From Mariprofundus aestuarium (GTDB lineage Bacteria; Pseudomonadota; Zetaproteobacteria; Mariprofundales; Mariprofundaceae): a stretch of 64,000 nucleotides of DNA. Position numbers and translations under genes: made by a program. The stretch lies in the NCBI RefSeq assembly GCF_002795805.1, contig NZ_CP018799.1:1357001-1421000 (forward strand). The letters are read 5' to 3'. Position 1 is the stretch's first letter. The number at the start of each line of letters is the position of its first letter. Below the pieces are notes generated by a model. That model was not told where the DNA came from. It worked only from the letters and a program-made list of their open reading frames with translations, and did no database searches. Below are positions 40,778-43,572 of this stretch, in pieces.

Positions 40778-41464
40778 TCAGTGATCGGGATATGGTAGAG
40801 GATCAGAGATGCCGAGCTCGGCAAAACCGATCTTTCGGTAATGACAGGAGTCACAGTGACCACAAGGCATGCCATCGGAAAGCGGATCGTAGCAGGAGCG
40901 TGTCAGCCCGTAATCGAGACCCAGTTTGAGACCCATACTGATAATTTCGGACTTACCAAGGTTGATCAGTGGCGCTTCGATATCAAGCGTCCCTCCCTCT
41001 GCACCTATCTGGGTGCCAATGCGGGCGCAGCGGGCAAATGCCTCTAGAAACTCAGGCCGACAGTCGGGATAACCCGAGTAATCCACCACATTTGCTCCAA
41101 TCACCAGCTTGGTTGCCCCCACTGTTTCGGCAAGCCCTGCTGCCAGTGAGAGGAAAATCAGGTTTCGGGCTGGTACATAAGTTGTGGGAACCTCTGCTCC
41201 ACCCGCCTCATCCTTAGGTACAGGCATATCAGATGTAAGTGCAGAATGCCCAATCGTTCGCATATCCACAGAGATGGTCCGGTGATCCGTGACGCCAAAA
41301 AAGCGGGCGACATGCTCCGATGCCGCAAGCTCGATGCGGTGACGCTGACCATAGTCAAAAGCGACGGTATGGCACTGCCAGCCCATCTCTTTAACCGCCC
41401 ATGCCAGTGCGGTACTAGAATCAAGCCCACCCGATAACAGAACCACGGCTTTAGCCTTACTCAT
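40778..41464 (-). CDS. queC: QueC: 7-cyano-7-deazaguanine (preQ0) synthase
   Basis: A 228-residue ATP-dependent enzyme of queuosine synthesis. Motifs: VLLSGGLDSSTALAWA (PP-loop), YVPARNLIFLSLA, and the zinc site CYDPLSDGMPCGHCDSCHYR. Its ATG overlaps the queE stop (ATGA), so the two are coupled. Confidence 0.95.
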   Translation of the reverse strand: MSKAKAVVLLSGGLDSSTALAWAVKEMGWQCHTVAFDYGQRHRIELAASEHVARFFGVTDHRTISVDMRTIGHSALTSDMPVPKDEAGGAEVPTTYVPARNLIFLSLAAGLAETVGATKLVIGANVVDYSGYPDCRPEFLEAFARCARIGTQIGAEGGTLDIEAPLINLGKSEIISMGLKLGLDYGLTRSCYDPLSDGMPCGHCDSCHYRKIGFAELGISDPLPYPDH

Positions 41465-42126
41465 ACCCCGGTAGCCTCCGCACCCCAGATCACCTTGTGC
41501 AGCTGCAGCTGCATACGCGCAGGCAGATGGTCTTCAAGTATCCATGCACACAGATCGCTGGCTGAGACCTCACCCCACGAAGTGGAAAGAAGTGGCGGCA
41601 CATCATCACCACCCAGCTCATGGCTTCGGATAAAGTCGCGAGACCACTCATAATCACTACGGTTACAGATAACGAATTTAATCTCATCCCCTGCCCTGAG
41701 CAACTTCAGGTTATCCAGCTGGTTCCTCTCAACCTCACCACTGCCAGGGGTTTTAATATCGACAATCCGACGTACACCATCAGGCACCCCGGCAACAGAG
41801 TAAGCACCGGATGTCTCAAGCTGCACCTCGACACCGAGAGCCAGCAGCCGTTCAAGAAGCTTTATACAGTTTCGCTGCGCAAGAGGCTCACCTCCAGTCA
41901 CAAGTACCAGCGGGCGCCCTCGCTGCTGCACATCATCAATGATCTGATCGATATCCATCCACGCGCCGCTATCTGTAGGAATAGCCTGCGTGGTATCGCA
42001 GTAGAGGCAGCGTAGCGGGCAGCCAGCCAGCCGGATAAAGGTGCACGGCATGCCAGCCAGAGTACTTTCGCCCTGTACACTGTCGTAAATTTCATGAATG
42101 CGTAAGCGTGAAACTGAAGTGATTAT
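41461..42126 (-). CDS. queE: QueE: 7-carboxy-7-deazaguanine synthase, apparently starting at AUA
   Basis: A radical SAM enzyme (step before QueC) with the cluster motif CPLRCLYCDTT and GGEPL. The first canonical start in frame is ATG 42051, but that would cut off the conserved HEIYDSVQGESTLAGMP, which is encoded upstream. From the TAA (about 42149-42147) to 42051 there is no ATG, GTG or TTG. ATA at 42126 has GGAG (42138-42135) 8 nt upstream, gives a 221-residue protein of normal length (MITSVSRLRIHEIYDS...), and overlaps the cpoB stop as ATAA, which is the usual ATGA with G changed to A. I annotate AUA as start; a sequence error is the alternative. Confidence 0.85.
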   Translation of the reverse strand: MITSVSRLRIHEIYDSVQGESTLAGMPCTFIRLAGCPLRCLYCDTTQAIPTDSGAWMDIDQIIDDVQQRGRPLVLVTGGEPLAQRNCIKLLERLLALGVEVQLETSGAYSVAGVPDGVRRIVDIKTPGSGEVERNQLDNLKLLRAGDEIKFVICNRSDYEWSRDFIRSHELGGDDVPPLLSTSWGEVSASDLCAWILEDHLPARMQLQLHKVIWGAEATGV

Positions 42127-43052
42127 TGCGGTTTCTCCACAGACGGGTTTTTACCCTGCCTCTTTTCACCTGAGCTATCGCTCTTCTTCTCAGGTGAACT
42201 TTCATCCTGCTTCTTCTCGAGTGCGCTTTCCACCTTCTGGATATCAGCAAGTGCAGCCTGAGCCTGTTCAGCAAGAGTGCTTTCGGGATGTTCATTGATC
42301 AAACGACTATAGTATCCTGCAGCGGCCTTTTTACTGTTCGACATCTCGGATAGCTGTCCAAGCTTCAGTAGCGCGGCAGCATGTTTAACACTATCCGGAT
42401 AATGGTCGGCCACATATTTAAATGCATGCAGTGCATTCTCGAGCGCCTGCTGCGAAATCCGTGTCTCCCCCAGCCAGAACCATGCCTGGTCTGCATACTC
42501 ACCATCAGGAAAAACATCCAGCTGTTCATTAAAGCCTCTGGAAGCCTCATCGAAGCGACCACTCTTCAAAGCCAGATAGGCTGCGGTATAGGCATTCTTT
42601 TCAGCCTCTGCCTGTGCTCCCCTGTCGGTAAACTGTTCGGACTTGGTGGTGACTGGTGGTGTTTCAGGCGCCTTAACAGGCGTGGTCCTGTGCATTGATG
42701 GTACACCCTGCTCTGCCTCCGGAACGGGCTTCACTACCGGCTTGGGTATCACTCTTCTCTTGCGGTGAAACTTTTCGATGCGTGCAGTCAGCGCATCTAT
42801 CTGGGCCTGTTGCGTCCGGTTAACCTTTTCCAGGTCCTTCAGCCGCTTGCTCACCTTAAGGGCATCCAACTCATCCAGCTTCAGTGTGTTCGCCTGAACT
42901 TCAGCATCAACTCTATCCTGAGAAACCTTGATCGCCTCGATGGAAGCGGTAGTGGCTTCCCTCTCCTGCTCCCAGGTGATTCCGGGCTTCTCTTTTGCGC
43001 ACGAACTCAATGTTAGCGCACACAACAAAAGAACGGCCATTGGTAAAACCAA
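42123..43052 (-). CDS. cpoB: CpoB/YbgF: Tol-Pal-associated TPR protein
   Basis: A ~309-residue exported protein: a signal sequence with lipobox LTLSSC, a coiled-coil (residues ~25-95; WEQEREATTASIEAIK), a Pro-rich linker, then TPR repeats (AYLALKSGRFDEASRGF, ADQAWFWLGETRISQQALENALHAFKYVADHYPDS) and a Lys/Glu tail. The YbgF name follows its place after tolB-pal. E. coli CpoB lacks the lipobox, so this is a lipid-anchored variant. Start: TTG 43052 (AGAGG 6 nt upstream); ATG 43040 is the alternative. The frame reaches 43202, inside pal. Confidence 0.85.
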   Translation of the reverse strand: MVLPMAVLLLCALTLSSCAKEKPGITWEQEREATTASIEAIKVSQDRVDAEVQANTLKLDELDALKVSKRLKDLEKVNRTQQAQIDALTARIEKFHRKRRVIPKPVVKPVPEAEQGVPSMHRTTPVKAPETPPVTTKSEQFTDRGAQAEAEKNAYTAAYLALKSGRFDEASRGFNEQLDVFPDGEYADQAWFWLGETRISQQALENALHAFKYVADHYPDSVKHAAALLKLGQLSEMSNSKKAAAGYYSRLINEHPESTLAEQAQAALADIQKVESALEKKQDESSPEKKSDSSGEKRQGKNPSVEKPQ

Positions 43053-43083: not shown

Positions 43084-43572
43084 TTAACGGGTGACAATGT
43101 CACCACGACGGTTCTGAGCCCAGCAAGCTTCGCCAGTATCCTGGCACGCAGGACGCTCTTCACCGAAGGAGACTGTATCGATGCGTTCAGCAGCCACACC
43201 ACGTGAGATCAGGAAATCACGGACACTGTCAGCACGACGCTGGCCCAGAGCCAGATTGTACTCGCGGCTACCGCGCTCATCACAGTTACCTTCAACAGTA
43301 GCATTCACAGCACCATTGGCATTCAGCCATGCAGCATTCGCATCCAGTGTCGCCCTTGCGGCGGCATCTAGGTCGGACTGGTCAAATGCAAAGTAAACAG
43401 CATTGCTGGATGGCTTCGCTACGGTCTCCACAACCGGCTGCACTTCCTGTACAACCTCTGCTGGTTTTTCCTGTGGAGCAACTTCAACTTTCTTCTGACA
43501 ACCGGCAAAGAGCAATCCAGCCGATGCGATAGCAATCAGTAACAACTGTTTTTTTGAGCGATTGAAATTCAT
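43084..43572 (-). CDS. pal: Pal: peptidoglycan-associated lipoprotein
   Basis: A 162-residue outer-membrane lipoprotein with lipobox LLFAGC and an OmpA-C domain (VYFAFDQSDLDAAARATLDANAAWL, VEGNCDERGSREYNLALGQRRADSV) that binds meso-DAP peptidoglycan. Member of the Tol-Pal system with TolB upstream. The C-terminus contains extra Cys (ACQDTGEACW). Confidence 0.95.
   Translation of the reverse strand: MNFNRSKKQLLLIAIASAGLLFAGCQKKVEVAPQEKPAEVVQEVQPVVETVAKPSSNAVYFAFDQSDLDAAARATLDANAAWLNANGAVNATVEGNCDERGSREYNLALGQRRADSVRDFLISRGVAAERIDTVSFGEERPACQDTGEACWAQNRRGDIVTR

Follow-up and report, generated by a model that had tools for sequence, protein, structure and literature searches.

The window, a stretch of 64,000 nucleotides, belongs to the closed genome of the iron-oxidising zetaproteobacterium Mariprofundus aestuarium (2.54 Mb, 99.99% complete), and the locus analyzed here carries the genes pal, cpoB, queE and queC in this order. 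Its features are as follows:

43084..43572, minus strand: pal, 5' of cpoB, inferred from OmpA-like sequence
42123..43040, minus strand: cpoB (ybgF), the 5' neighbour gene of queE, start assumed at ATG 43040
42135..42138, minus strand: Shine-Dalgarno (SD) GGAG with an 8-nt spacer to ATA, predicted pairing of -6.4 kcal/mol with an assumed ACCUCCUUA tail
42124..42126, minus strand: candidate queE start codon ATA (read as fMet), from which the queE-frame codon bias extends
42123..42125, minus strand: cpoB stop TAA, within the ATAA shared with the queE start
42051..42126, minus strand: N-terminal segment (containing HEIYDSVQGES) that is lost with a start at ATG 42051, as seen from profile loss, and that shows a strong third-position bias
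41461..42126, minus strand: queE, 7-carboxy-7-deazaguanine synthase, 221 aa from AUA 42126 (TIGR04349, PF04055, QueE structures)
40778..41464, minus strand: queC, the 3' neighbour, with a regular ATG start that overlaps the queE stop as ATGA

When the queE frame was read from the upstream stop codon at 42153-42151 to the HEIYDSVQGES motif, ATG, GTG, TTG and CTG were all found to be absent. The sequence runs TAA (42153-42151) AAA CCC GTC TGT GGA GAA ACC GCA ATA (42126-42124) ATC ACT TCA GTT TCA CGC TTA CGC and continues with ATT CAT GAA ATT TAC GAC AGT GTA CAG GGC GAA AGT, and the first canonical in-frame codon, ATG 42051, is located 3' of the motif. The 3' end of cpoB on the same strand reads GTG GAG AAA CCG CAA TAA, with the queE frame lying one base earlier, such that the cpoB stop at 42125-42123 and the ATA are combined in a shared ATAA at 42126-42123. 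An earlier note on this DNA had stated that no ATG, GTG or TTG lies in frame 5' of ATG 42051 and that ATA 42126, with a GGAG 8 nt upstream, overlaps the cpoB TAA; both statements were right, including every coordinate, and CTG can be added to the codons missing before the motif. Folding of the junction RNA revealed no notable structure, either in the window (z -1.7 and -0.5) or in one relative (z -0.4).

The protein started at AUA scored 267.8 bits (curated cut-off 300 bits) in a full-length match to TIGR04349, the best NCBIfam model, that begins at profile position 1. The radical SAM domain PF04055 scored 46.4 bits (cut-off 29.5), the translation contains the CX3CX2C radical SAM motif as GCPLRCLYCDT, and the chains of the solved QueE relatives 6nhl, 5tgs and 4njg align over the N-terminal motif. 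Furthermore, queE directly adjoins queC, placing it in a queuosine-gene neighbourhood. By homology and context, the gene is best described as a QueE outside the strict bounds of the TIGR04349 subfamily model. If translation began at ATG 42051, the first 19 profile positions and 26.8 bits would be lost. The E15A exchange of the motif glutamate strongly lowers the fluorescence of E. coli QueE (PMC11142719); a start at ATG 42051 would strip the protein of a motif whose glutamate E. coli requires for a normal QueE level.

We surveyed 41 relatives, then searched 78 genomes of the class, fetched the other loci and read every junction, which gave us 70 queE loci of the Zetaproteobacteria in which the N-terminus could be read. 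A canonical start (ATG, GTG or TTG 5' of the motif) was missing in 34 of these loci, which are related by descent and do not provide independent counts, and in none of 76 queE loci from outside the class; queC had a canonical start in 69/69 of the same loci. Chance alone does not account for this contrast. The 34 comprise 26 loci with ATA, four with CTG, one with ATC and three that are uncertain. Together with five loci carrying a canonical codon further down (L086, L087, L090, L131 and L133, where ATA has an SD and the in-frame ATG or TTG nearer the motif lacks SD pairing), ATA occupies the identical place in 31 of the 70 loci, distributed over five genera and nearly always forming ATAA or ATAG with the cpoB stop. 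The queE start that the earlier note had placed at AUA within the ATAA overlap is the most likely one. The ATA loci come from separately sequenced isolates and metagenome bins, and include two closed genomes (G000, G008) and the named isolate Mariprofundus sp. KV (L003). In this closest named relative, whose QueE is 78% identical, the junction reads GTGGAGAATCAGCA ATAA CCG, again with GGAG 8 nt 5' of ATAA. Because it is common to most of the genus and to parts of four other genera, the AUA, present in about thirty species related to this one, is an old and conserved feature, and neither a sequencing error nor a recent mutation. The same distribution does not bear out the picture, suggested earlier, of one G-to-A change that befell this strain recently. 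A check of the relatives for ATGA, likewise proposed in the note, found none at the site within the genus, an outcome in favour of the note's reading; the sole clear ATGA with an in-frame AUG in the family occurs in L140, beside its ATAA sister L138.

Other arrangements were observed at individual junctions. CUG is the apparent queE start in a CTGA overlap with cpoB in five loci (L094, L097, L101, L102 and L128), where a single base change would give AUG; of these, L102 has a distant GTG besides its CTG and was counted beside the 34. In L091, AUC (within TAATC) is found at the SD distance held by AUA elsewhere. A stop-linked layout is also present in the remaining zetaproteobacterial loci that lack a canonical start or have CTG or ATC, except for four loci in which the queE start is uncertain (L106, L107, L109 and L112). 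L107 has an ATC with a strong GGAGG 10 nt 5', L109 offers CTA or ATT only and no SD, and L112, which like L102 was counted beside the 34, presents ATA, ATC and ATT consecutively after AGGAG, with AUC or AUU being probably used.

Several properties of the junction bear on where queE coding starts. In the ATA loci, the last cpoB codon before the stop is CAA (14), AAA (12), CCA (3), TCA (1) or CGA (1), so that the base before the stop is A in every case, including the five fourfold-degenerate codons; over the preceding 60 cpoB codons, A makes up about 0.29 of third positions. As the ATA group was selected for ATA, this comparison has to be made in a looser form: among loci with a same-phase stop overlap and no canonical start, the preceding base is A save in the CTG and ATC cases, as compared to 15/27 canonical-start relatives. 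The distance from the cpoB stop to QGE ranges from 41 to 56 nt and equals 2 mod 3 in 29 of 30 AUA loci, and takes all three phases in canonical loci. In G058 (L126), the ATA is retained even though a single-base change within a run of A has moved the cpoB stop 4 nt further on, giving ATAAATAG; in L136, where an indel has displaced the former ATA from the frame, an in-frame ATG is found. Differences between sister loci, counted by queE codon position, are even 5' of the ATA (334/288/300), biased toward third positions between ATA and the motif (113/80/218) and distributed as 41/4/366 over the next 60 nt; because the comparison was anchored at the start codon, the zero differences at this codon arise by construction and are not evidence. 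The SD pairing, calculated throughout with the usual anti-SD as an assumption, has a median of -6.6 kcal/mol at the 31 AUA starts, compared to -2.2 kcal/mol at 29 canonical queE starts within the class and -2.5 kcal/mol at 75 outside it (p 1e-6 and 6e-10, respectively, values that ignore relatedness). The stronger pairing may offset part of the loss incurred with AUA. Judged from these sequence patterns, queE coding begins at the ATA codon.

The alternatives to this reading differ in how well they accommodate the junctions. One base change would restore ATGA, and the pair L138 and L140 shows both forms, but it is practically inconceivable that a normal ATGA overlap is masked by faulty sequencing or assembly, or by a point mutation newly arisen in one strain; the relatives, with ATA in 31 separately sequenced loci of five genera, refute it. 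The use of another near-cognate codon, AUC 42123 or AUU 42099, is improbable, albeit the least so of the rival explanations. The AUC directly follows the ATA and shares its SD, making a start one codon later possible in this genome, and the AUC of L091 and the probable AUC or AUU of L112 offer precedents; however, the codon at 42123 is ACC, AGC, ACA, ACT or AAC in most relatives, and the one at 42099, which lacks an SD, is replaced by GTT or ATG in some of them. Although ATG 42051 is the first in-frame canonical codon, we give hardly any credence to a QueE that begins there and whose N-terminal segment is never made. Such a protein would lack HEIYDSVQGES, which is found in the solved QueE structures and aligned with INEMFQTLQGEG of E. 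coli, and both the strong effect of the E15A exchange (PMC11142719) and the strong queE-frame codon bias of the segment 42051..42126 argue against it.

A CpoB-QueE fusion, made by ribosomes that shift into the -1 frame close to the cpoB stop, is also very improbable. The queE frame is indeed -1 relative to cpoB, and cpoB has an A-rich end in some relatives (AAAAAATAA, genus g23), but the Mariprofundus ends (CAG CAA TAA) are not slippery, and an in-frame stop lies directly before the start in L102 and 1-3 codons before it in L092, L126, L129 and L145. Moreover, CpoB is an exported protein, and a fusion would take a cytoplasmic radical-SAM enzyme outward with it. We see equally little prospect for a dedicated AUA-reading initiator tRNA or for editing of the mRNA to AUG or AUI, either of which would make the AUA efficient: an anticodon-stem search found two initiator tRNA genes, both with CAU, and the site is unlike TACG, the context of bacterial A-to-I editing.

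We thus consider it highly probable that queE is translated from AUA 42126 by the normal fMet-tRNA, aided by the SD and by ribosomes terminating on cpoB, and with a low output. In this mechanism, ribosomes would arrive at the AUA via the well-placed GGAG, and those that have just finished at the overlapping cpoB UAA would also supply the start. The ordinary CAU initiator tRNA would pair with the A and the U, leaving the third base mismatched, and the mismatch would render initiation inefficient, so that QueE would be made sparingly and in an amount tied to that of CpoB. IF3 acts in vitro in favour of starts whose third position forms a Watson-Crick or G-U pair and against mismatched ones (PMC10158994). 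In S. aureus, about 10% of the AUG output is obtained from AUA in ccpN and citZ, as well as from an AUU start, and the ccpN value rises to as much as 30% in rich medium (PMC13009471). Given these output data and the in vitro behaviour of IF3, one would expect little QueE to be made from AUA and its synthesis to respond to IF3. Initiation at the AUA, its coupling to cpoB, the low yield and the IF3 dependence are what we infer for queE, and by analogy its synthesis would be weak and perhaps regulated. In E. coli, overproduction of QueE by about 3-fold or more blocks division (PMC11142719), which, if comparable, may be one reason to keep QueE low here.

Near-cognate starts were also seen at other genes. 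In the same genome, infC lacks a canonical start and reads AAGGAG ACTTGT ATT AAA AAA (L162/L163, G000:C1, near 576861), and across the class infC begins with ATT, ATC or, in G024 (L192), ATA, indicating that near-cognate starts are nothing unusual for the translation machinery in these bacteria. In a further comparison with the nearest closed relative, covering 384 kb, we looked for genes with homology that continues 5' of the first canonical start; ORFs truncated at the end of a stretch and short or low-quality extensions were excluded. Among 265 conserved genes, homology with a coding pattern 5' of the first canonical codon was detected only in queE, truB and one doubtful case; three cases in 265 genes imply that near-cognate starts are rare in this genome and not general.

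As to truB (TIGR00431; 12323-13255, minus strand), no ATG, GTG or TTG lies 5' of the essential DKPLGWTS, the first GTG following the motif, and the upstream TAG is succeeded by GAT ATC ATT ATT TCC. The start is probably AUU 13249 (or else AUU 13246 or AUC 13252). ATT 13249 aligns with ATT in G008 and with ATG in L198 and L199; by this alignment the truB AUU is young and restricted to the strain's own sub-clade, unlike the queE AUA. The doubtful case (L233:1829-2599, plus strand) is a conserved, membrane-protein-like gene without a canonical start in its first 73 codons, for which an AUU start after the GGGGGGGGAGGGAGAA run is possible, as is a homopolymer error or a frame change.

We placed the start codons on a QueE tree whose alignment omitted the N-terminal columns and whose root was not inferred; there, AUA occurs in most of the genus to which this genome belongs, most of g23 and members of g3, g24 and g25. 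The unrooted tree requires at least 8 changes between canonical and near-cognate states, and at least 11 between individual states. Within the near-cognate group the codon has shifted to AUC in L091 and to CUG in CTGA in five loci. Where the overlap involves a cpoB TGA, CUG (five loci) outnumbers AUG (a single clear case, L140), a difference suggestive of selection for a weak start, with small numbers. Tentatively, and with the odds rather against it, we propose that selection holds zetaproteobacterial queE at a weak start that moves among AUA, AUC and CUG and seldom to AUG in the overlap, which would keep QueE scarce, link its amount to that of CpoB and make it sensitive to initiation fidelity through IF3, alongside infC and, in the lineage of this genome, truB.

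Long-conserved bacterial AUA starts other than that of infC have rarely been documented. Gene finders limited to ATG, GTG and TTG would miscall queE in dozens of genomes, here by setting the start at 42051 with the motif cut off. The clade also provides a natural series, with AUA, AUC, CUG, AUG, UUG and GUG at one orthologous site, for asking whether weak starts are selected or tolerated, and the same series bears on the mutual constraint of stop and start codons in four-base overlaps.

Comparison with known systems places queE, as judged on sequence features, among the near-cognate starts of the infC, pcnB and ccpN kind: a canonical start that would give the complete protein is missing, the SD is strong and well spaced, and the arrangement is conserved between species. 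The pcnB gene of E. coli, which starts at AUU, is likewise an RNA-related gene with an AUH start, but differs in gene, codon and context. By contrast with pcnB, infC (AUU in E. coli, AUA in S. aureus) shares with queE a conserved near-cognate AUH start and a strong SD, and its initiation is low and discriminated against by IF3 (PMC13009471); unlike queE, infC encodes the start-policing factor itself, its codon serves autoregulation, and there is no stop-start overlap. The AUA of ccpN (S. aureus, B. subtilis) and the AUU of cvfC1 are likewise conserved starts with an extended SD and a measured output of about 10-30% of AUG; in contrast to queE, they occur in Firmicutes and belong to a regulator or a small protein, and the passages on them describe no overlap with an upstream stop (PMC13009471). 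With regard to its layout, cpoB-queE resembles the -4 overlaps associated with termination-reinitiation (PMC10666635), as the stop and the start have four bases in common in a conserved, syntenic operon pair. The overlaps described are, however, ATGA or GTGA, and every start codon is reasoned to end in G (PMC10666635), whereas the queE junction departs from the NTGA form, with ATAA or ATAG in 31 loci and CTGA and TAATC as variants. While AUA starts themselves were already known, what is new here is a long-conserved near-cognate start inside a four-base stop-start overlap.
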